A stretch of 32,850 nucleotides of DNA from Methanomassiliicoccaceae archaeon. GTDB taxonomy: Archaea; Thermoplasmatota; Thermoplasmata; Methanomassiliicoccales; Methanomethylophilaceae. Below the pieces are notes generated by a model that was not told the origin of the DNA, did no database searches, and was given only the letters and a program-made list of their open reading frames with translations. The position numbers and the translations under genes are program-made. Location of the stretch: contig PWHV01000029.1 in assembly GCA_003555025.1 (NCBI GenBank), forward strand, positions 1 through 32,850, written 5' to 3'. Shown here in pieces: positions 21,388 through 32,850 of this stretch (position 1 is its first letter; each line of letters starts with the position of its first letter).

Positions 21388-23151
21388 ATGGAGGACGACG
21401 AGGGGAACAAAGGCAGCGACTCGCTGCGCAAGTGGCTCAAGGGCGACGACTCCAGCCTGGTCTCCTGGCTCTCGGGGGGGACGCAGGCGGCGGAGGGCGA
21501 GGAGTCCTTCGAGCTGAGAAAGAGGATCATGCAGCTGGAGGACGAGAAGGCTCAGCTGACCGAGGAGCTCGAGGCCGCCCGCGAGGGCGCCGCGGGCACC
21601 CACGCCACGCTTGACGATGTCCTCGACGCCCGCCCTTCACTGCGCACGCGCCTGGAGCGTTTCCGCATGCGCATGGACGGCCTGTCCAACAAATTGGGCT
21701 CGGTGGCGGAGCAGCTCTGTCCCGAGACGCAGAAGTACATCGAGGTGCAGAAGCGCATAGAGGCGCTGGACTCGGAAATGAGGGGGGTGCTCCGCAACCT
21801 TCTGGAGCGCCCGGAGGCGCTGGACCAGCACGCCAAGGAGGCCGCCGAGGTAGAGAACAAAATGGAGGAAGAGACCCCGGCGCTGGAGGCCAAGATGGCC
21901 GAGATCGAGGCCGATGTGGAGAACAAACGCATCGCCGACGCTATGACCAAGGAGAAGCTGGAGCTCGTCGAGATGGGGCGCGAGGATGCCGATGCCTTCC
22001 TCGATCAGCGCATGAAGGAGCTGGAGAACTGGAAGGAGGAACGCATCACCCTGGAGCGGGAGAACCAGCGCCTCCGCGTGCAGCTGGAGGACCGCTCCGA
22101 GGAGCTCAACCGCCTGCGCAGCCTGCTGCGCTACAAGGAGGAGGAGCTGGTGCGGCGCGAGGAGGACCTCATCTACCGCGAGAGGATGGTCGACGAGGAG
22201 CAGAAGCGCTTCGCCAGCGAGAAGGCCCAGGTCGACGGCATCGACGAGCTGAAGATGCAGAAGCGCCTCGAGGATCTGCGCGGCGAGGTCACCAACAAGG
22301 AGGAGGAGATCCGCAAAAAGGAGAGCTACCTCAACAGCAAGATGGAGGAGCTGCGCCGCCGCGAGCTAGACCTCATCGAGGAGGAGATAGACGTCCGCGA
22401 GGAGGACCGCCTCGCGGAAGTGAGCGCCAAGAAGGCGCACACCGGCAACCAGCGCCTCAACGATTTATTGCTGGGAGGCTATCCGTTCGGCAGCAGCCTG
22501 CTGGCCTACGGGCCCTCCTTCGTGGGCAAGGAGATACTGGTCAACGAGTTCGTCGCCGAGGGGCTGGTAAAGGGCGTGCCGGCGCTATGGGTCCTGACGG
22601 ACAGCAGCCCGACGGAGATTCGGGCGGAGATGGAAAGGATCATCTCCGGCTACGAGGAATACGAGAAGCTGGGGCTGGTCAAGTACGTGGACGCCTACAG
22701 CCGCACCGTGGACGAACCAGGGGACGACCCTTACACGGCGTACATCGAATCCCCGGAGAGCCACGACGCCATCTCGGCGGCGGTGGACAAGATCGCCGCC
22801 GAATTCAAGCAGGACCATGACTACTACCGCCTAGGTTTCCGCTCCCTCTCCAACCTCATAGCCTATTCGGACATCAACAAGGCCTTCCGCTTCCTCAGCC
22901 CCTTCGTGGGCAAGCGTAAGAAGGACCGGGCGGTGTCGCTCTTGGTGCTGGAGAAGGGGCTGCAGCAGGAGCAGGAGATCCAGATGCTGAGCATGATCGT
23001 CGACGGCATGCTCGATTTCAAGATCGACAACCAGCGCAACTTCTTCGCCGTCAAGGGAATAACCGACGTGCAGACCCGGAACGATGTGCGCTACACATGG
23101 AGCGACCGGGGCCTGAACATAGGCTCCTTCACCCTGGACCACATCAAGTGA
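21388..23151 (+). CDS. Long coiled-coil protein with degenerate KaiC/RecA-like domain
   Basis: 587 residues. Residues about 45-345 are charged heptad-like helix (for example EEIRKKESYLNSKMEELRR), one of the longest coiled coils expected in such a genome. From about 351 (HTGNQRLNDLLLGGYPFGSS) a KaiC/RAD55-like ATPase fold begins. The P-loop reads GPSFVGKE (375-382): the Ser/Thr after Lys is replaced by Glu. The expected Walker B strand reads AVSLLVLEKG, with no clear aspartate. So it probably binds nucleotide poorly or not at all. It may be a scaffold or regulator; ArlH of the archaellum is a KaiC-like partner of a secretion ATPase, and an ATPase operon lies 1.5 kb away, but a link is speculative. 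Confidence 0.85.
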   Translation: MEDDEGNKGSDSLRKWLKGDDSSLVSWLSGGTQAAEGEESFELRKRIMQLEDEKAQLTEELEAAREGAAGTHATLDDVLDARPSLRTRLERFRMRMDGLSNKLGSVAEQLCPETQKYIEVQKRIEALDSEMRGVLRNLLERPEALDQHAKEAAEVENKMEEETPALEAKMAEIEADVENKRIADAMTKEKLELVEMGREDADAFLDQRMKELENWKEERITLERENQRLRVQLEDRSEELNRLRSLLRYKEEELVRREEDLIYRERMVDEEQKRFASEKAQVDGIDELKMQKRLEDLRGEVTNKEEEIRKKESYLNSKMEELRRRELDLIEEEIDVREEDRLAEVSAKKAHTGNQRLNDLLLGGYPFGSSLLAYGPSFVGKEILVNEFVAEGLVKGVPALWVLTDSSPTEIRAEMERIISGYEEYEKLGLVKYVDAYSRTVDEPGDDPYTAYIESPESHDAISAAVDKIAAEFKQDHDYYRLGFRSLSNLIAYSDINKAFRFLSPFVGKRKKDRAVSLLVLEKGLQQEQEIQMLSMIVDGMLDFKIDNQRNFFAVKGITDVQTRNDVRYTWSDRGLNIGSFTLDHIK

Positions 23152-23577
23152 TCAGGCCACTTCCGGCCCCGGAGGCGGGGGGCGCTTCACGTTCACCCGC
23201 GGCAGAGGGAATGGAGGCGGCAGCTTGGCCTCGCGCGCCACCAGCACCGCCGAGACCATGCAGCTGGAGACGATGGAGCTGTGTATCGCGTTGGCCTCCT
23301 CGCTCGGTATCTGGCCCCTCTCCATCCAGGATGTGGCGACCTCCTGGGCGGGGCCGCGGAAGAGCAGTTCCCCCTCGATGTTGACGTACCCCATGCCGGA
23401 ATAGCTGACGCAGAAGCGGAAGGCGACCGCCCCTTCCGTCTCGGACAGGGCGGTGACCTGGGTGATGGCGCTGTTCTGGTCGATGCGGACGTCCGCCGAC
23501 CCCCCTCCCATCCTCTGGAAGCGCTTGGCATCGAGGCCGGTGATCTCGAACCTGGTTATCTCCACGGGCGATGGCAT
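23152..23577 (-). CDS. Hypothetical protein, possible SecB-like fold
   Basis: 141 residues, beta-rich in the middle (VTALSETEGAVAFRFCVSYS, GYVNIEGELLFRG), then a helix and a tail LPPPFPLPRVNVKRPPP. The ending recalls the FPPLxLxPVNF ending of SecB chaperones, and a SecB-like protein is known in Methanocaldococcus. The rest of the match is weak, so this is a lead and not a call. ATG 23577 is preferred over GTG 23589 because GGAG lies 7 bases before it. Its stop abuts the KaiC-like gene stop directly (TGATCA). TATA-like GATTTATCG lies 20-25 bases upstream. Confidence 0.7.
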   Translation of the reverse strand: MPSPVEITRFEITGLDAKRFQRMGGGSADVRIDQNSAITQVTALSETEGAVAFRFCVSYSGMGYVNIEGELLFRGPAQEVATSWMERGQIPSEEANAIHSSIVSSCMVSAVLVAREAKLPPPFPLPRVNVKRPPPPGPEVA

Positions 23578-23628
23578 GGCAATCTCCACGGCCGATAAAT
23601 CGTTTTTCTATAGAACAGGCACGGATGG

Positions 23629-23701
23629 TGCCGCGGGCCGGACTCGAACCAGCGACTTCAAGATCTTCAGTCTTGCACTCTCCCAACTGAGTTACCGCGG
23701 C
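23629..23701 (-). tRNA. tRNA-Phe (anticodon GAA)
   Basis: On the minus strand the acceptor GCCGCGG (from 23701) pairs with CCGCGGC (ending 23630), discriminator A is at 23629, and CCA is encoded at 23628-23626. Anticodon stem CAAGA/TCTTG encloses CTGAAGA, giving GAA at 23668-23666. The T-arm is GCTGG, TTCGAGT, CCGGC. No intron. Confidence 0.97.
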
Positions 23702-23813: not shown

Positions 23814-24656
23814 ATGCTGATGAACAAGTTCGATAGAACGATGCGCTGGAAGAGGAGGATGCGCGGAGATGACGGCGTGGCGTCCGTCATCGGCACCATA
23901 TTCGCAATCCTGGTGCTGCTCACTCTGCTCTCCCTGCTGATAACCACCTACATACCCGCCTGGGAGAAGCAGAACGAGCAGGAGTTCATGAACGAGACGC
24001 TGTCCCGCTTCTCCACCGTGAAGAGCGTCAACGGCCTGATGGAGACCGACGACCAGCAGTTCGTGTCCATCCCCTTGGCCCCTTCCAAGGTCCCGCTCTT
24101 CGGCAAGACGGTGCTCGGCAAACTGGACTTCACGCCGTCCAAGGTCTCGGATACCAGCATAAGCGTAGACTTCGCCGGGCTGAGCGAACCTATAAAATCG
24201 ACCGGATCCCTGGAATACCTGGTGTACCAGAACTCGAAGCTGGAGCAACGGATCTCCTACGAGATGGGCGCGGTGGTGGTGTTCCAGCCCGACGGGGGTC
24301 TGGTGAAGGTGGCGCCGCAGATCGCCGCCTCACCCAGCTCCGGGGGCGGATACGACCTGCGGCTGACCATGTACGAACTCGTTGGCGATGACAGCGAGAG
24401 GATCGGCGATGGTGCGTCCGGCGTCAGACTCGATGTCAACGACATTCAGCATTATGAGCTCACCCCGGGCGATGATACGGTCACCATGGTCATCGGCAGC
24501 GCCTATGCCGCGGCCTGGGAGGATTGGCTCAACGAACGCTTCATGCCAGAGGTGGCCGACAGCGTCAGCCGCGACGGCGGCGAGGTCACCGTGATCTTCA
24601 ACGACCTGAACGAAATTGAGATAACGAAGGTCTGGACCGAGGTGGTCCTGGAGTGA
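23814..24656 (+). CDS. Type IV pilin-like or pseudopilin protein
   Basis: 280 residues. The N-terminus is basic (MRWKRRMR), followed by GDDG (18-21) and a hydrophobic helix VASVIGTIFAILVLLTLLSL. This is the layout of archaeal class III signal peptides, with likely prepilin peptidase cleavage after Gly21. VASVIG resembles the AVSPVIG start of many archaeal pilins. The rest is a beta-rich outer domain, larger than a typical major pilin, so a minor or tip pilin is likely. ATG 23814 or 23820 could be the start; the weak GGCGGGG nearby does not decide. Its TGA overlaps a GTG of the ATPase gene (GTGA), and it heads the operon. Confidence 0.82.
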   Translation: MLMNKFDRTMRWKRRMRGDDGVASVIGTIFAILVLLTLLSLLITTYIPAWEKQNEQEFMNETLSRFSTVKSVNGLMETDDQQFVSIPLAPSKVPLFGKTVLGKLDFTPSKVSDTSISVDFAGLSEPIKSTGSLEYLVYQNSKLEQRISYEMGAVVVFQPDGGLVKVAPQIAASPSSGGGYDLRLTMYELVGDDSERIGDGASGVRLDVNDIQHYELTPGDDTVTMVIGSAYAAAWEDWLNERFMPEVADSVSRDGGEVTVIFNDLNEIEITKVWTEVVLE

Positions 24657-24661
24657 TCCCC

Positions 24662-26344
24662 ATGGAGGCCAGGCGCGACGAGAAGGGGGCGGGCGGTAAG
24701 CTGCTGGACCGCTACGCCAAGTTCCTGCGCAAGTCCTCCATGAAGCCGACCATGATCAAGGTGGCGCGGGCGAAAGAGGAGGACCCCGGAGGGGAGACGG
24801 TGGGCGTGATTGTCATACCAAGCTACCCCGTGGATGAGATGGAGGTCTTGGAGACCTACCCGATACGAGAGGGCTACTGCTACATCCAGGTGGTCTACGA
24901 CAAGCTGCTGAACGAGTACCGCCTCGATGTCATCGAGCCCGAGCTGGACGACTTCCAGCAACGGCTGCTGGAGCGGATAAAAGACACCCTGCAGCGCACC
25001 CTGGGATATGACTGGGAGCGCCTGGGGAAGATGGAGAAGTCCCGATACATAAGCGAGAGCGTGATGGGTTTCCTGGAGAGCCGCAGGATCGAGGTCGACA
25101 AGACGGCGCAGGCCAAGATCGGCTATTATATAATTCGCGACCTGGTGGGGTACGGGCCCATCGACGTGCTGGTGCGCGACGACAGCATCGAGGACGTGTC
25201 CTGCGACGGTCACGGCATCAGCATCTACCTCTATCACGCGCGCTACGAGAGCATAAGGAGCTCGGTTATGTTCGAGAGCAAGGATGAGCTGGACTCGTTC
25301 ATCATCGCCCTGGGGCAGCGTTGCGCCCGGCAGATAACCGTCTCCTCCCCGCTTCTCGACGGCACCACTCCCGAGGGGCACCGCGTGCAGGCCACCTACT
25401 CCGACGAGGTGACCGCCCACGGGTCCACCTTCACCATCAGGCGCTTCAAGGACCGCCCGTTCACCCCCACCGACCTGGTGCGGGGGAGGACCGCCTCGGC
25501 GGAGATGATAGCCTATATCTGGATAGCGGTGGAGAACGGCGAGTCCTGCCTGGTATGCGGCGGCACCGGCGCCGGCAAGACCTCGACCCTCAACGCCCTG
25601 GCGCTGTTCATACCCCCGGGGGCCAAGGTGGTGAGCATGGAGGACACCCGCGAGATCAACCTCCCCCACGACAACTGGATTCCGAGCGTCACCCGGGCGG
25701 GCTCCGGGCAGAGGGACCAGGATGGCAAGGCCGCCGGCGACATCGACATGTACGACCTGGTGCGGGCGGCGATGAGGCAGCGGCCCAACTACATCATCGT
25801 CGGCGAGGTCAGGGGCAAGGAGACCTACAACATGTTCCAGGCGATGGCCACCGGCCATACCACCTACTCCACCATGCACGCCGACTCCGTCAAGTCCATG
25901 GTCAGCCGTCTGGAGAACCCGCCCCTCAGCATCCCCCGCATACTGCTCACCTCGCTGCGCAACGTCATAATCCAAGCGCCGGCGCGGGTCGGCAAGGACA
26001 TGGTGAGGCGGGTCCGGGAGCTGGTGGAGATCGTCGGTTTCGAGCCGGACACCAACGAGCTCATCACCAACACCGTTTTCCAATGGGACCCGGTGAGCGA
26101 CGAGTTCATCTTCAAGGGGCAGAGCTACATGTTCGACAAGATAATCGAGCTCAAGGGCATAACCCACGAGGAGATGGACAATGAGTTCCAACGCCGGGTG
26201 GACATCATCCGCTACATGGAGAAGAAGAACATCAACGACCACCGGCAGATATGGGCGTTGATAAACCGCTACAGCAACGAGCCGGACAAGGTGATGCGCA
26301 TCGTGGCCACGCGCCTGGCCCAGGAGGAAGAGGATGTCGCCTGA
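24662..26344 (+). CDS. Type IV pilus/secretion ATPase, GspE/TadA type, copy 1
   Basis: Hexameric motor that drives pilin assembly or secretion. Walker A is GGTGAGKT (300-307), the Asp box is MEDTREINLPHDNWIPS, Walker B is VGEVRGKE, and the His box is TGHTTYSTMHAD. About 560 residues, typical of archaeal forms with an N-terminal domain. ATG 24662 has GGAG 8 bases upstream; GTG 24653 inside the pilin stop (GTGA) is also possible. A 10-residue insert (SGQRDQDGKA) after the Asp box is absent from copy 2. The next gene overlaps its end by 11 bases. Confidence 0.96.
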   Translation: MEARRDEKGAGGKLLDRYAKFLRKSSMKPTMIKVARAKEEDPGGETVGVIVIPSYPVDEMEVLETYPIREGYCYIQVVYDKLLNEYRLDVIEPELDDFQQRLLERIKDTLQRTLGYDWERLGKMEKSRYISESVMGFLESRRIEVDKTAQAKIGYYIIRDLVGYGPIDVLVRDDSIEDVSCDGHGISIYLYHARYESIRSSVMFESKDELDSFIIALGQRCARQITVSSPLLDGTTPEGHRVQATYSDEVTAHGSTFTIRRFKDRPFTPTDLVRGRTASAEMIAYIWIAVENGESCLVCGGTGAGKTSTLNALALFIPPGAKVVSMEDTREINLPHDNWIPSVTRAGSGQRDQDGKAAGDIDMYDLVRAAMRQRPNYIIVGEVRGKETYNMFQAMATGHTTYSTMHADSVKSMVSRLENPPLSIPRILLTSLRNVIIQAPARVGKDMVRRVRELVEIVGFEPDTNELITNTVFQWDPVSDEFIFKGQSYMFDKIIELKGITHEEMDNEFQRRVDIIRYMEKKNINDHRQIWALINRYSNEPDKVMRIVATRLAQEEEDVA

Positions 26345-27353
26345 GATATCGGACGTCTTCTCCCGCCTGGACCCCAGCAAGTCCAAGACCTATTCCAAGA
26401 CCAAGCGCTCGGAGGACGCCGCCGAGCACGAGCACCCCCGGCTGATAAAGCTGCAGAAGGGCCTCAAGCCGGACCACATCAAGCTGACACCGTACCAGGC
26501 CTTCTGTTGGAAGGTCCTGGGCAACGCCGCCATGAAGGCCAAGGCCAACATCAAGTTGGAGGACGCCCTGTTGCAGGCGCACATGCCTCTGTTGGCAGAG
26601 GAGTACAAGGCCTACATGTGGTTCACCTCCCTGCTGGCGGTGCTGCTCGCCGCTGTGGTGGGCATCGTTCTCCTGGCGGTGCTGGAGCCTTTCGAGGTCG
26701 CCCTGGCGGCGGCGGTCATGCTGCCGCTGATCGCGGGCATGGCGGTCTACGGGCTGCTCAGCATCATACCCGGCTCCAACGCCAGCAGCCGGGGCCGGGA
26801 CATCAACAAACGCATCGGCCCGGCGATGAGCTTCATCTCCGCCCTGGCATCGGCGGATGTGAACGTGGACGTGATATTCAAGGAGCTTGCCCGCCAGAAC
26901 ATCTACGGCTCGGTCAAGGAGGAGGCGGAATGGATCACCCGCGACACCGAGCTCTTGGGCATCGACGTGATCACCGCCGTGTCCCGTGGAGCGCAGCGGA
27001 CCCCCTCCGACCGCTTCCAGGACTTCCTGCAGGGCGTCGTCACCCCCTCCACATCCGGCGGCCAGCTCAAGCCGTACTTCCTGCAGAAGGCGGAGCAGTA
27101 CGAGAGGGAGATGAAGATACAGAACCGGGCGATGCTGGAGAACCTGGGCCTCATGGCCGAGACCTACGTGACGGTGGTCGTGGCCTTCCCGCTGTTCCTG
27201 GTAATCATCATGGCCATAATGGCCATCATCGGCGGCCTCGACTCGGGTATCGCCATAACCCTGCTGTACTTGGTGGTGGCTCTCATGGTCCCGGTGTCGC
27301 AGATAGGCTTCATATTCTACGTGTGGAACATGACCGAGGAGGCGCGGGTATGA
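26334..27353 (+). CDS. Type IV pilus platform membrane protein, TadB/C/ArlJ-like, copy 1
   Basis: 339 residues with a GspF-type domain. A cytoplasmic charged N-terminus of about 90 residues is followed by paired membrane helices (MWFTSLLAVLLAAVVGIVLL and VALAAAVMLPLIAGMAVYGL). A cytoplasmic helical bundle follows (SFISALASADVNVDVIFKEL; QRTPSDRFQDFLQGVV), then two C-terminal helices. It should form the inner-membrane platform turned by the ATPase. Strong AGGAGG lies before ATG 26334, inside the end of the ATPase gene. Its TGA overlaps the next ATG (ATGA). Confidence 0.92.
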   Translation: MSPEISDVFSRLDPSKSKTYSKTKRSEDAAEHEHPRLIKLQKGLKPDHIKLTPYQAFCWKVLGNAAMKAKANIKLEDALLQAHMPLLAEEYKAYMWFTSLLAVLLAAVVGIVLLAVLEPFEVALAAAVMLPLIAGMAVYGLLSIIPGSNASSRGRDINKRIGPAMSFISALASADVNVDVIFKELARQNIYGSVKEEAEWITRDTELLGIDVITAVSRGAQRTPSDRFQDFLQGVVTPSTSGGQLKPYFLQKAEQYEREMKIQNRAMLENLGLMAETYVTVVVAFPLFLVIIMAIMAIIGGLDSGIAITLLYLVVALMVPVSQIGFIFYVWNMTEEARV

Positions 27354-28231
27354 GGACCGAGGTCATCAAAGAGGACATAATGGACATCTCCCGCCTGCAG
27401 GGGTCCAAGGGCCGCGACTACGGATATCCCATGCTCGGCCTCAGCCTGGGCATCGGAATGGTGTTCTTCGCGGTCGCTGCGCTGGTGCAGACGGGGGGCA
27501 TGACCTTCGCGCTGGAGTGGTACGAGCTCATGGCCATCGGCCTGCTGGTGATACTCGGACCCTACGGGTTCTACGGAACCTCGGTGGCGAAGAAGAAGGC
27601 GGACATCGAGGCCCGCCTCCCCGATTTCCTCCGCGACGTGGCGGAGGCGGGGCGCTTTGGCATGACCCTGCCCGAGTCCATCCAGGTGGCTTCACGGGGA
27701 AAGTACGGAAAGCTCTCGCCGGAGATAAGGAAGATGGCGGCGCAGATCGAGTGGGGCGTGCCCGCCACCGAGGCCCTCACCCTCTTCGTGGACCGCATCC
27801 AGACCCCGCTGGTGGAGAGGATGATCGCCATCATAGTCAAGGCCAACAACGCCGGTGGCAACGTCTCCGACGTGCTGCAGATGGTGGCCAAGGACGCCCG
27901 CGAGGCCCGGCTCATGGAGGAGGAGAGGAAGGTGGAGATGGTCATGTACATGATGGTCATCTACATCGCCTTCTTCGTGTTCATCGCCACCATATTCATC
28001 ATGAACAGCGTCTTCCTGCCGGCTATGCTCGACATCAACGTCGAGGGGGCGATGATAAACGTCCCCATCATAACCGAGGTGCAGGTGGTCTTCGTGGTCT
28101 CGGTCATCGTGTACGCGGTGGGCAACGGCATCATGGCGGGGGTGCTGCAGGACGGGAGGATCGCGAACGGAATGAGGCACGGCTTCATCATGCTCCTGGC
28201 GGGCATGGTGTCGCTGGCGATACTGGGGTGA
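27350..28231 (+). CDS. Type IV pilus platform membrane protein, TadB/C-like, copy 2
   Basis: 293 residues. Two N-terminal helices are followed by a GspF cytoplasmic bundle (LPDFLRDVAEAGRFGMTLPE; NNAGGNVSDVLQMVAKDARE) and two or three further helices. Together with the preceding gene it makes a two-subunit platform, as TadB and TadC do in Tad systems. The start overlaps the previous stop (ATGA). The frame is open far upstream through the preceding gene, but that part is an out-of-frame reading with no membrane helices. GGTGA just before the next start lies within its last codons. Confidence 0.92.
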   Translation: MRTEVIKEDIMDISRLQGSKGRDYGYPMLGLSLGIGMVFFAVAALVQTGGMTFALEWYELMAIGLLVILGPYGFYGTSVAKKKADIEARLPDFLRDVAEAGRFGMTLPESIQVASRGKYGKLSPEIRKMAAQIEWGVPATEALTLFVDRIQTPLVERMIAIIVKANNAGGNVSDVLQMVAKDAREARLMEEERKVEMVMYMMVIYIAFFVFIATIFIMNSVFLPAMLDINVEGAMINVPIITEVQVVFVVSVIVYAVGNGIMAGVLQDGRIANGMRHGFIMLLAGMVSLAILG

Positions 28232-28236
28232 ACTGA

Positions 28237-29907
28237 ATGGCGCGCAAGAACGGCGATGTGGGCACCAAGACGCGGGGCAGTTTCACCTCCAAGTACGGCT
28301 CGGTGCTCCTGAACATCAAGGACAAGCCCATGCGGGTGAAGATACCCACCCAGATCAAGGAGGAGCGCGAGATAACCCACATACCCCCCATCATGGGGGA
28401 CGATGTGCGGATGGTGGAGATTCACCCGGTGGAGGAGCCCTACACCTACGTGCGCATAAACTACGACCGAGCCCTGGGGGAACACCTCTACGAGGTAATA
28501 GAGCCACAGCTCTCCGAGGACGAGGAGCTGCTGCTGGAGGCCCTCAAGGAGGCATTGACCAGCACCCTCAACCAGACCGGGGAGGAGACCGGCGACGAGG
28601 AGCGCAAGGAGATACTCCGCATCGCCCTCGACCGCCTGCTGCAGAGCATGGAGATCGTCCTCGGCGAGTCGTCCAATGAGCGGATATACTACTACCTGCG
28701 CCGCGACTTCATCGGCTACGGGGCGATAAACGTGATGATGACCGACGCGGGGGTGGAGGACTGCTCCTGCGACGGCGTGGACATCCCCCTGTTCATATAC
28801 CACCGCAAATACGGCTCCATCCGTTCCAACATCAGGTTCGACAACGAACCCGAGCTGGACCGCTACGTGTCATGGCTGGCGCAGAAGTGCGGCAAGCACA
28901 TCTCGGTGGCCAACCCCATGCTCGACGCCACCATGCCCGACGGCTCGAGGCTGAACGCCACCCTGTCCAAGCACGTCACCAAGCGGGGCTCGTCCTTCAC
29001 CATCAGGCGCTTCCGCGAGAACCCCTTCACCCCAGTGGACCTGGTGCGCTTCCGCACCATGTCACTGGAGATGGTCGCCTACACCTGGCTCTGCATCGAG
29101 TACGGGAACTCCATCATGGTCTGCGGCGGCACCGCCAGCGGCAAGACCACCACCCTCAACGCCACCCTGCTGTTCATACCGCCGCAGATGAAGATCGTCA
29201 GCATCGAGGACACCCGCGAGCTCAACCTTCCCCACGAGAACTGGATACCGAGCGTGACCAGACAGGCCTTCGGAGCGGAGATGGGCGGGGAGGTGACGAT
29301 GTTCGACCTCCTACGCGCCGCGCTGCGGCAGAGGCCGCAGTACATGATGGTGGGCGAGGTCCGCGGGGCCGAGGCCTACGTGGTCTTCCAGGCCATGGCC
29401 ACCGGCCACCCCTCCTATTCCACATTCCACGCTGAGGACGTGCAGTCCATGGTCCATCGGATGGAGAACGAGCCCATCAACCTGCCCCGGGCGCTGTTGA
29501 GCTCCTTGGACGTGGTGCTGCTCCAGGGGCAGGTGAAGGTGGGCGACAAGATGACCAGGCGCGTCAAGGCCGTGACCGAGATGGTTGGGATGGATCCGGA
29601 GAGCGGGGAGCTCATCACCAACACCGTCTTCACCTGGAACCCGGCCGATGACACCTTCTACTTCTCAGGCCACTCCTATGTCTACGAGAAGATCAGGAGC
29701 ATAAGGAACTGGTCGCCGCGGCAGATGGAGCGCGAGGTCAAGCGCCGCATAGACATCCTCGACTACATGAAAGCGACCGGGGTGGACAACTTCCGCAAGG
29801 TGGCGTCCATCATCTCTTCCTACTACAAGGACCCGGACAACGTCATAACCGAGATGCGGCGCAAGCTCAAGGAGATCAAGGGGGCCGAGAAGCCCCCCGA
29901 GGAGTGA
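28237..29907 (+). CDS. Type IV pilus/secretion ATPase, GspE/TadA type, copy 2
   Basis: 556 residues, a full paralogue of copy 1. Walker A is GGTASGKT (297-304), the Asp box is IEDTRELNLPHENWIPS, Walker B is VGEVRGAE, and the His box is TGHPSYSTFHAED. All motor residues are intact, so this looks like a second working ATPase rather than a relic. The N-terminal domain shares EEPYTYVRINYDR with the matching part of copy 1 (REGYCYIQVVYDK). ATG 28237 lies 5 bases after the platform gene, with GGTGA upstream. It ends 6 bases from the facing surface-protein gene. Two motors in one operon could serve extension and retraction, or two substrates. Confidence 0.95.
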   Translation: MARKNGDVGTKTRGSFTSKYGSVLLNIKDKPMRVKIPTQIKEEREITHIPPIMGDDVRMVEIHPVEEPYTYVRINYDRALGEHLYEVIEPQLSEDEELLLEALKEALTSTLNQTGEETGDEERKEILRIALDRLLQSMEIVLGESSNERIYYYLRRDFIGYGAINVMMTDAGVEDCSCDGVDIPLFIYHRKYGSIRSNIRFDNEPELDRYVSWLAQKCGKHISVANPMLDATMPDGSRLNATLSKHVTKRGSSFTIRRFRENPFTPVDLVRFRTMSLEMVAYTWLCIEYGNSIMVCGGTASGKTTTLNATLLFIPPQMKIVSIEDTRELNLPHENWIPSVTRQAFGAEMGGEVTMFDLLRAALRQRPQYMMVGEVRGAEAYVVFQAMATGHPSYSTFHAEDVQSMVHRMENEPINLPRALLSSLDVVLLQGQVKVGDKMTRRVKAVTEMVGMDPESGELITNTVFTWNPADDTFYFSGHSYVYEKIRSIRNWSPRQMEREVKRRIDILDYMKATGVDNFRKVASIISSYYKDPDNVITEMRRKLKEIKGAEKPPEE

Positions 29908-29913
29908 TGGGGC

Positions 29914-32850
29914 TCAGCCCTTTCCTTTGCTGTCTTTCTCCCCCTCGTCTTTGGGCTCAGCGGCCTCCTCGGCACCCTCCTCGGGCTCCTTCGGCTTGCG
30001 CTTGACCACGACCTTCTTGCGCTGTGGCTCGCCGGTCCTTATCTCCGGCTTCTTCTCCGCCTCTTCGCGGCGGACGACGCGGCGGGCCACCTCGGGCTCG
30101 TCTCCTTTCCCGAAGACGTGGCCGCAACGGTGGCAGTTCTTGCTGCCCACCACGTTGGGGGAGCCGCAGTCGGGGCAGGAGATGGTCTTCTCCACCTTCT
30201 CGCCCTCATCCCGGGCCAGCCAGTCCTCGAAGCTGATGTATTCGGGGTGGGACTTCCACCACTTCTTGAACTTCGGTTCGGAGAACTTCCTCCCCATCTC
30301 CTCTTTTGCGGCCTCGCGGTAAGTCCCCAGGAAGGCCTCGTAGGCCTCGCGCCTCTGCTGCATGTGGTCGCTCTCCTCCTCGCCCACGATGGTGCTGCCG
30401 ATGAAGGTCGCTCCGCACTCGGGGCAGCTGCTGGAGTCGGACGGTATCCAACTGGAGCACTCGCTGCACTTGGCGGTGCCCGTCTCGAAGTCGGTGCCGC
30501 AGTTGGGGCAGCTCCGAGAGGACTCCGGTATGAGGGCGTGGCACTCGCCGCACTCCGCCATCTTGCCCAGGCTGTAGCGGTACACGTAGAGGCTGAAGGC
30601 GCCGAGGATGGCGGCGATCACCGCGATGATGATGAGCCAGACCCAAATGGGTTGGTCGGTGATGGCCGTGGCCGGGTTGACGGTGATCGTCAGGGGAACG
30701 CTGGTGGCGCTCTCGCCGTCGACGGTCACCTCGCTCATAAGCTCCGCCGCACCGGCCATGTCGTCGGTGGCCTCTATCTCGACCTGATAGAAGCCGTTGC
30801 TGTCGGTCTCGGCGCTGCGCTGCGCCACCGGGTTGCCGTCCTTGAGCACTGACACGGTGACCGTCTCCCCTGCGAGGGCCTGATCGCTGTCGTGCTGGTT
30901 GACCGCCGAGCCGGTTATGACTATGGCGTCGCCCGCATCGTAAACCACCCAAGGGGTGCTGATGGTGACCCTCGGCTCCAACGGGTCCACCGTGAAGGCG
31001 GTGTCAAAACGGTTGTTGTCGTAGTCCCGCTCGGGCTCGGTGCGGAACTCGTTTATATGCGATTCTAGCGTGTAATCTTTAGGATCGGCGTCGACCTTCC
31101 ATTGCACAGTGCCGCTAAAGTTGCCGTCGGCGGGGACGTCGATTGACCTTCCGTCGTAGGTAACGGTGGTGTTGACTATCTGCTCCCTTTCCGTTCCTTC
31201 GACCAGGTACATGGTGAGCCTGGCGCCGTCGAAGTCTGCAAGCCCTGTGTTGTAGACGGTGAAACCTATGTCCACGGTCTTGCCCACCGACGCGTTCTCC
31301 GGCGGTGCTACCCCGGCATTGGCCACCGACCCGCCCCCTGGAAGGACGGCGGGAGACAGCACCAGGTCGGCCCGGTCATCGATGAAGACCGTGCTTGTGC
31401 TTGCCGTGTTCTCAGAGTAGTCCGACTCCGGTATCCCTCCCGCCACGAACTCGCCGTGGTTGACTGTTACGGTGAATTCCATTGTGGAGGTTTGCTTCTC
31501 GCCGGGGGACTTGGCGCCCTCCCACACGAACGATGGGAATACGGTCTGCCCGGCATCTATCCGGTCTATCGTCTGCTCAGCGAGGAGCAGCTCAGGGCCT
31601 CCATCCTCGGAGTAGGTGATGTTGATGTCCACTTCCGTCGCATCATAGACGCCCTGGTTCCTTATCTCGTAAGCCAAAATCATGTTGTCATCGATGTTCA
31701 GGTCGCCGGTGGGAGACCTCACCAGATCGACGATGGCCAGATTCACGGTCATGTCTATGCTCGCGGACGTGCCGTTGATTATCCCATCGTCCGACAGCAC
31801 AACCGTGTCCAGTGAGAGGTCGCCGGGATGTGTCTGTTCGAAGAGAAGCGCCACTGTGGTGCTCTCACCGACCTCGAGCTCTTCGACACCGCTGCTCACG
31901 TTGGACGTGCCGTTGACGACGAAGTCGACCTGGAATTCTTCGACGAGGTCCCTGTCGCCCTCGTTGGTGACGTCCACCGCGAGATAAGTGCCGGTCTCAT
32001 TCCGTATTTGGTACGGCTCGGAGAGGTTGAGGGCGGGAGCGCTGCCCGTTATGGTCATCGGTTTGCTGACGTCCTCGTTCAAGGGCTGGTCCAGATATGG
32101 ATAGGAGCCGAAGCTTATGTTGCCGTGTCCTATGACGTAGCCGCCAGGGCCCGAGCTGGCCTCCAGAGACCAGGCGTGATGGGATATGCCGCTACTGTCG
32201 ATCCTGTTGGAGAGCAGCGGGAGAACGACCCCTCCGTCCGAGCCGGTGCAGTTGAAGTCGTCGGCATCCCTGTCGAGCCAACCGAGGACCGATGGCGGCG
32301 GTGTCGAGTCGTCGCCGTTGTATGGGGTGTAGGTTGCCGGATCCTTGCTGACCTCTTCATGGGCGTTCACCGCGACATTGGCTATCGGCTCATCGAGCGA
32401 GTTTTGGAGAGTGATGTTGGCCCATTTGTAAATGAAAGCCTGAGGTTGATACGTTATGCTTAAATTTAGATATTCAAAGGATACGGAATCTTCAGGTCCA
32501 TTTTCAAAAATAAAACTTGTATTAGATAAATCTGATATTTTGTAATTGGGTAATTGGTAATCTTGTGTAGTTGGACCGATTTCGGGTTCAATTGTAGTAT
32601 TATAAATATTATTTTCTAGTTGATATTGGAGCAGGGGGCCTTGGTTATAATTATTACCAGCTGAACTTTGAAGGATAATTTTTGAGTCCACTAGCCCCTC
32701 AGGCAACCCTGTCAGATTCATTAAGACGGACATGGTGTTATCCGCGGCAACATCATAGGTCTCCCCGTCATCCAGCATCAGATCCCCGATGTCCTCGCCG
32801 GTGTCATCGTCGTCCGTCTGGTTGAGCGGGCGGACCGTCACCGTCCGGTC
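29914..32850 (-). CDS. Large surface protein: CARDB-like repeats, one membrane helix, three zinc ribbons (start beyond window)
   Basis: At least 978 residues; the frame is open to the right edge. The outer part (about 30650-32850) is beta-rich, with CARDB-like repeats (YLAVDVTNEGDRDLVEEFQ; MILAYEIRNQGVYDATEVDI; VDIGFTVYNTGLADFDGA) and many N-x-S/T sequons suited to glycosylation. One helix (IWVWLIIIAVIAAILGAFSL, near 30600-30640) crosses the membrane. The cytoplasmic part has three C-x2-C pairs of pairs: CGECHALIPESSRSCPNCG, CSECSSWIPSDSSSCPECG and CPDCGSPNVVGSKNCHRCG. A Lys/Glu-rich tail follows. Adhesion outside with a metal-bound docking module inside is a reasonable inference. It faces the pilus operon end to end. 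It contains an AT-rich island. Confidence 0.88.
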   Translation of the reverse strand, partial: DRTVTVRPLNQTDDDDTGEDIGDLMLDDGETYDVAADNTMSVLMNLTGLPEGLVDSKIILQSSAGNNYNQGPLLQYQLENNIYNTTIEPEIGPTTQDYQLPNYKISDLSNTSFIFENGPEDSVSFEYLNLSITYQPQAFIYKWANITLQNSLDEPIANVAVNAHEEVSKDPATYTPYNGDDSTPPPSVLGWLDRDADDFNCTGSDGGVVLPLLSNRIDSSGISHHAWSLEASSGPGGYVIGHGNISFGSYPYLDQPLNEDVSKPMTITGSAPALNLSEPYQIRNETGTYLAVDVTNEGDRDLVEEFQVDFVVNGTSNVSSGVEELEVGESTTVALLFEQTHPGDLSLDTVVLSDDGIINGTSASIDMTVNLAIVDLVRSPTGDLNIDDNMILAYEIRNQGVYDATEVDINITYSEDGGPELLLAEQTIDRIDAGQTVFPSFVWEGAKSPGEKQTSTMEFTVTVNHGEFVAGGIPESDYSENTASTSTVFIDDRADLVLSPAVLPGGGSVANAGVAPPENASVGKTVDIGFTVYNTGLADFDGARLTMYLVEGTEREQIVNTTVTYDGRSIDVPADGNFSGTVQWKVDADPKDYTLESHINEFRTEPERDYDNNRFDTAFTVDPLEPRVTISTPWVVYDAGDAIVITGSAVNQHDSDQALAGETVTVSVLKDGNPVAQRSAETDSNGFYQVEIEATDDMAGAAELMSEVTVDGESATSVPLTITVNPATAITDQPIWVWLIIIAVIAAILGAFSLYVYRYSLGKMAECGECHALIPESSRSCPNCGTDFETGTAKCSECSSWIPSDSSSCPECGATFIGSTIVGEEESDHMQQRREAYEAFLGTYREAAKEEMGRKFSEPKFKKWWKSHPEYISFEDWLARDEGEKVEKTISCPDCGSPNVVGSKNCHRCGHVFGKGDEPEVARRVVRREEAEKKPEIRTGEPQRKKVVVKRKPKEPEEGAEEAAEPKDEGEKDSKGKG
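32440..32710. other. AT-rich island inside the surface-protein gene
   Basis: Base composition drops sharply from GC-rich to strongly AT-rich here while the frame stays open. The encoded stretch is rich in Asn, Ile, Tyr and Gln (for example SKIILQSSAGNNYNQGP; NNIYNTTIEPEIGP). Codons use A/T at third positions, unlike every neighbour. This suggests an exchanged or recently acquired segment of the outer domain. Confidence 0.6.

Follow-up and report, generated by a model that had tools for sequence, protein, structure and literature searches.

Most archaeal pili have one motor ATPase, and both Archaeoglobus fulgidus GspE and Haloferax PilB3 are known as single ATPases. The locus described here raises the question of what a pilus-like operon with two complete motors and two platform genes would use them for. 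The window, a stretch of 32,850 nucleotides from a Methanomassiliicoccaceae archaeon, is an entire contig (C34) of a draft genome (1.41 Mb, 97.4% complete). Five genes, all on the forward strand, lie end to end over positions 23,814-29,907 in the order pilin-like protein, ATPase 1, platform 1, platform 2, ATPase 2 (table 1), with overlaps of 4, 11, and 4 bases and a final gap of 5 bases between platform 2 and ATPase 2. Both the open reading frame coordinates and the Pfam matches (cut-offs: T2SSE, 24.9 bits; T2SSF, 25.2 bits) confirm the order given in the initial annotation, which had described all spacings as overlapping or under 6 bases. The genes at this locus presumably make a pilus.

Table 1.— Features of the operon and its surroundings, in positions of the window.
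Feature	Position	Strand	Evidence or remark
Coiled-coil protein with KaiC-like domain	21388..23151	+	Upstream of operon
145-aa protein	23152..23589	-	Upstream of operon; no known Pfam family
tRNA-Phe	23626..23701	-	Directly upstream of pilin gene
Pilin-like protein, 280 aa	23814..24656	+	PF23960 (DUF7289) 36.7 bits, cut-off 27; ATG chosen at 23814
ATPase 1 (ATP1), 563 aa, VirB11/TadA/ArlI-like secretion ATPase	24653..26344	+	T2SSE 112.4 bits, PilB3_C 30 bits
ATP1 residues 234-256, predicted arginine-finger loop	25352..25420	+	Alignment-based equivalence to CpaF D215/R223
Platform protein 1 (PLAT1), predicted N-terminal half of ArlJ/AapF-like platform; TadC-like position	26334..27353	+	T2SSF 48.2 bits
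Platform protein 2 (PLAT2), predicted C-terminal half; TadB-like position	27350..28231	+	T2SSF 79 bits
ATPase 2 (ATP2), 556 aa, paralogue of ATP1	28237..29907	+	T2SSE 123.3 bits, PilB3_C 31.9 bits
ATP2 residues 228-250, predicted arginine-finger loop	28918..28986	+	G-S-R state, same as single-motor relatives
Convergent neighbour, 975 aa up to contig end, CARDB repeats and zinc ribbons	29914..32841	-	Pfam; zinc ribbons C-terminal; gene cut by contig end

Judged by profile alignment, the two platform genes are the N- and C-terminal halves of one ArlJ-type platform and not two platforms: PLAT1 aligns to positions 10-245, and PLAT2 to positions 272-537, of the 555 positions of the ArlJ model NF004704. 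TadC and TadB have been described as matching halves, interpreted as the outcome of a fission (Denise et al. 2019, PMC6668835), and two tadC genes are reported for many euryarchaea (Makarova 2016, PMC4858521). The platform split is more widespread than the second motor, because 26 of 140 loci comprise just a single ATPase and, behind it, the two platform halves (A-P1-P2). The suggestion that two motors feed one platform heterodimer fits these observations, as the platform genes correspond to ArlJ halves and the predicted platform-contact surfaces of the ATPases show no excess divergence (see below).

Both ATPases are assigned by their sequences to the archaeal TadA/ArlI (VirB11-like) family, as paralogues, and not to PilT. 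Their best solved relatives are, in this order, A. fulgidus GspE, FlaI, and CpaF, and ATP2 matches A. fulgidus GspE (2OAP), its closest solved relative by sequence, with 453.9 bits; the PilB3_C domain is present in both ATPases. Against the PilT family model TIGR01420 they score only 46.5 and 55.3 bits (cut-off 319.1), and an AIRNLIRE-like stretch, sought in both, is absent, the best match covering 3 and 4 of 8 letters. Scores are also under the cut-off for the TadA-type model TIGR03819 (148 and 157.9 bits; cut-off 373.15) and for the ArlI model NF058587 (408 and 461 bits; cut-off 550). In this last respect the operon differs from the archaellum, and the FlaH-FlaI-type locus of this genome is separate, on contig C27. 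Altogether the genome has four T2SSE matches, namely ATP1, ATP2, the archaellum ATPase on C27, and an orphan TadA-like ATPase (locus L004, C19:26630-27196). Many genomes of the window's family that have no T2SSF match keep one T2SSE match, mostly with an E value of about 1e-18 to 1e-26; this lone match is perhaps the C19-type ATPase, kept after pilus loss.

The Walker A, Asp box, Walker B, and His box motifs listed in the initial annotation are borne out in both ATPases. Nine positions (the Walker A Lys and Thr, the Asp-box Glu and Asp, the Walker B Glu, the His-box His, and the equivalents of CpaF R347, R223, and D215) are invariant in 77/77 ATP1 and 77/77 ATP2 sequences, 71 of the 77 per paralogue being distinct and short fragments, the divergent loci L045 and L046, and out-of-class pairs being excluded. 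Equivalence to the CpaF residues follows from sequence alignments together with the residues as reported in PMC12019362.

The pilin-like gene that heads the operon is the only DUF7289 gene in the genome. Its product has an archaeal pilin-type hydrophobic start, in which GVASVIGTIF or a similar stretch is conserved across 31 aligned sequences, and the AlphaFold2 model (mean pLDDT 90.1) predicts a helix at residues 3-75 followed by a beta-rich head, giving a lollipop shape; a Foldseek search of this model against the PDB returned no match with E <= 0.001. The protein is probably a large minor or priming pilin. Clade 2 minor pilins are described as all-beta proteins of about 250-550 aa (Makarova 2016, PMC4858521), which the 280-aa protein resembles, and it may belong to the same family. 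No prepilin peptidase was found in the part of the window examined, in line with the initial annotation, and PF01478 gave no match at E <= 0.001 in the genome. We initially read this as absence of the enzyme from the genome, and dropped that reading for a divergent homologue on another contig (C22:11900-12793), a candidate prepilin peptidase that carries a GGAD motif and shares 59% identity with a protein of the same genus that weakly resembles PF01478. As the genome carries this candidate elsewhere, the missing peptidase near the operon is probably immaterial.

A convergent relative of the CARDB-repeat neighbour, up to 2354 aa long in the loci seen, comes after ATP2 in several DHVE2 loci and in most loci of the window's order, and the protein is a possible surface partner or adhesin of the machine. 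On the other side, most loci of the order have the genes for the KaiC-like-domain protein and the 145-aa protein upstream of the operon in the same arrangement.

To what extent the arrangement is shared can be seen from the genomes of relatives. T2SSE matches in 101 genomes (relatives and the genome itself) are often paired, about 3.6 kb apart. Among 40 loci selected from the order and class (20 picked for ATPase pairs and 20 by T2SSF matches across the class), 39 show ATP1-PLAT1-PLAT2-ATP2, the sole exception (L043) being a wrongly chosen T2SSF match. Within the larger set of 140 loci, made up of these 40, 80 named loci, 19 from the rest of the phylum, and the window, the full order is found in 84 (78/131 once loci sharing an ATPase sequence are removed), so the concern that the order might be conserved in no relative does not hold. 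The pilin gene comes first in 66 of the 84 and last in 5, two pilin genes are present in 1, and none was found in 12; three of the 84 (L132, L136, and L139) lie outside the class. The loci without the full order comprise the 26 single-motor loci and others, many of them cut at contig ends.

A census of 300 genomes of the class, counted by hand from the table, gave exactly two ATPase matches in 176 genomes, at least three in 12, a single one in 35, and none in 77; the no-match genomes listed (20 of the 77) all belong to the window's own family (f1). Some lineages of the class have lost the operon. As for the 35 genomes with one match, nine (f22) carry a second match of greater divergence, some 3.2 to 3.4 kb distant. 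Another 14 contain pieces of a further ATPase, mostly lying at a contig end or in a disrupted frame; some of these pieces could come from different ATPases. Ten loci were fetched from the remaining 12 genomes: In nine, the contig ends within the operon or at its border, and the tenth (G371) is a different, divergent ATPase/platform set. The G364 locus begins at base 2 of its contig. This G371 set, from an f14 genome (L180, C101), has the order ATPase-PLAT1-PLAT2, and similar-scoring ATPases (537-549 bits) occur in two relatives (G431 and G433). In G114, ATP1 is present with no match for ATP2; this genome was considered as a natural ATP2 knock-out and dropped because a run of undetermined bases follows PLAT2. 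No intact one-motor locus could be demonstrated in the 300 genomes, the two ambiguous cases being G114 and G371. The two motors are retained together even when separated: The metagenome-assembled genome of Aciduliprofundum sp. ARK-15 has an operon without ATP1, and its true ATP1, scoring 892 bits with the ATP1 profile versus 729 with the ATP2 profile, lies on another contig.

Phylogenetic analysis of the ATPases (70 rows from 228 sequences) places the ATP1 and the ATP2 proteins of the Thermoplasmata in one clade each, with support of 100/100. The tree was rooted on the single-motor loci because FlaI and the C19 TadA-like ATPase proved unsuitable as outgroups, with branches 3.1 and 10 changes long that joined inside ATP2; these two were left out, as were 14 other rows comprising near copies and the long L045, L046, and L124 rows. 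The second ATPase accordingly falls in the same family as the first, and the fear that it might group with an unrelated system was unfounded. Other arrangements within the Thermoplasmatota are A-P1-P2-A (the three out-of-class loci named above) and the tandem A-A-P1-P2 (L094/L138, L133, L135, and L144). The tandem pair of the f45 lineage (L135 and L144) forms one clade inside the single-motor group (100/100), and joining the first f45 copy to ATP1 is rejected (AU test, p 1.4e-39); on this tree, the f45 lineage of the phylum duplicated its motor independently, in tandem and upstream of the two platform genes. Neither a grouping of ATP1 with the upstream copies of L132, L136, and L139 (AU test, p 0.48) nor a sister relationship between ATP1 and ATP2 (p 0.42) is rejected. 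The duplication took place at or before the base of the Thermoplasmata, the tree not telling which, and neither motor copy is younger than the class.

Comparison of the paralogues (77 sequences each) revealed 20 positions that are fixed differently between ATP1 and ATP2, several of them in the N-domain loop holding the arginine equivalent to CpaF R223. The consensus of this loop is LDGTTPEGHRVQATY in ATP1, LDATIPDGSRLQATL in ATP2, and LDATLPDGSRIQLTL in the single-motor relatives, and the residues fixed in ATP1 only include G237, E241, H243, and Y249. The H/S difference (GHR in ATP1, GSR in ATP2) is also kept in the divergent f22 loci L045 and L046, and all out-of-class ATPase pairs have S at this position. 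Across 277 conserved columns, 30 are split between the paralogues; 7/20 of the conserved columns in the arginine-finger loop are split, as against 1/25 in the platform-contact elements, which thus show no excess divergence, with the contacts defined by published AlphaFold3 models of CpaF and hence being those of another system. The cluster in the loop has a hypergeometric p of 0.0025, having been noticed first and tested afterwards, and a scan over all places gives p values of 0.084 (window of 23), 0.026 (window of 20), and 0.052 to 0.112 (windows of 12, 15, and 30). The fixed differences therefore cluster marginally around what the alignment identifies as an arginine finger, and the two motors may dock alike and differ in nucleotide handling. 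Out of 132 columns conserved in the single-motor relatives, 13 are lost in ATP1 and 7 in ATP2, suggesting that ATP2 is nearer to the ancestor. Gene-distance correlations with the two platform genes are 0.947 and 0.916 for ATP2 and 0.886 and 0.882 for ATP1; as the genomes are related, nothing is concluded from them.

Parts of this arrangement are already known. In 2016, Aciduliprofundum boonei was noted to have paired ATPases within a single locus, where two distinct ATPases accompany one pilA-like pilin gene, as here; the available part of that report gives this in one sentence, without order, platform, or conservation (PMC4858521). A close precedent, compared by description, is CdiP of Cuniculiplasma divulgatum, also of the class Thermoplasmata, which has two ATPases (CdiPE1 and CdiPE2) in one operon and a platform divided into N-half and C-half genes (PMC12448462, ISME J 2025). 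Its pilins lie about 500 kb away (PMC12448462), whereas here a pilin-like gene heads the operon. According to that article, two ATPases are unique among reported archaeal operons and the need for the second is enigmatic (PMC12448462). The bacterial Tad pilus likewise has a VirB11-like motor and a platform encoded by two one-domain genes (PMC12019362, PMC6668835); it differs in that a single ATPase, CpaF, both extends and retracts. The titles and abstract openings of the open-licence literature yielded no paper describing the arrangement across the Thermoplasmata or in the Methanomassiliicoccales. What is new here is its spread through the class, its age, the joint retention of the motors, their intact active sites, and the fixed differences between the paralogues.

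We consider it probable that the locus encodes one pilus machine with one two-part platform and two active, specialised motors. Both motors would act on the PLAT1/PLAT2 platform, with a division of labour between them. The machine would be an archaeal type IV pilus of the euryarchaeal PilB3/GspE2 branch, in which PLAT1 and PLAT2 would form one heteromeric membrane platform of the ArlJ/AapF type encoded in two genes, as for TadC/TadB. ATP1 and ATP2, both predicted to be catalytically complete, would use a common N-domain face and pore loop for docking and would insert pilins into the fibre. The pair would have been made by duplication at or before the base of the Thermoplasmata; as a weak guess, ATP2, richer in ancestral single-motor residues, might be the main assembly motor, with ATP1 as a derived partner responsible for a different gear or direction.

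How the labour might be divided can be read in several ways. Tentatively, the motors could form an antagonistic pair, with extension of the fibre by one ATPase and retraction by the other; such a pair would parallel PilB/PilT but descend independently from an ArlI-like motor. The presence of two complete motors on a single platform would suit this pairing, as would fixed differences in the nucleotide-sensing arginine-finger segment, where direction could be set, and the choice of CpaF between extension and retraction has been placed in nucleotide handling (PMC11300603). The type IVa PilB and PilT are likewise two paralogous motors on one platform, but neither ATPase here is of the PilT family, and the pair would have a separate origin. 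Two motors are also not required for both movements, because CpaF, and AapE as reported in PMC12448462, manage extension and retraction with one. Moreover, C. divulgatum, with its two ATPases and split platform, is described in the same report as showing no twitching (PMC12448462), and bacterial retraction motors are reported to be often lost (PMC6668835), yet the 300 genomes of the class offer no demonstrable intact one-motor locus.

Less probable is a mixed motor, in which ATP1 and ATP2 share one hexamer (3+3) and each pairs with one half of a trimer of PLAT1/PLAT2 heterodimers. The two-part platform would offer two kinds of docking site, because in the CpaF model each CpaG or CpaH is in contact with a single ATPase subunit (PMC12019362); joint retention even with the genes apart fits an obligate complex, and the fixed differences adjoin an active-site arginine finger. 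The A-P1-P2 loci speak against it: As they are common (26/140), a two-part platform does not call for two ATPases. Every catalytic residue is, moreover, kept in both paralogues, so neither has turned into a structural subunit. A stronger form, which we regard as quite unlikely, would have ATP1 and ATP2 alternate in an obligate hetero-hexamer on the PLAT1/PLAT2 trimer, retained on an all-or-none basis since the origin of the Thermoplasmata, with the independent f45 doubling taken to show that doubling is favored on this type of platform.

That the motors are alternatives, swapped on one platform according to condition or pilin set and without antagonism, is also rather unlikely. Duplicated ATPase/TadC modules have been argued to share pilins and may be differently regulated (Makarova 2016, PMC4858521), major pilins are often encoded elsewhere, and the genome has a single DUF7289 gene; the four genes, however, form one tight operon in most loci, which suggests joint expression. 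Redundant copies without separate function are very improbable even though tandem duplication occurred a second time in the f45 lineage, as the age of both copies equals or exceeds that of the class, 20 positions are strictly fixed in different states, and the copies persist together.

Returning to the preferred reading of two specialised motors on one platform, an arrangement regarded in 2025 as unique, on the evidence of one species, is the norm across the Thermoplasmata. Archaeal pili have been thought to run on one motor; an ancient, class-wide pair of active motors on one platform would provide a natural system for distinguishing between two directions, a mixed ring, and two gears.
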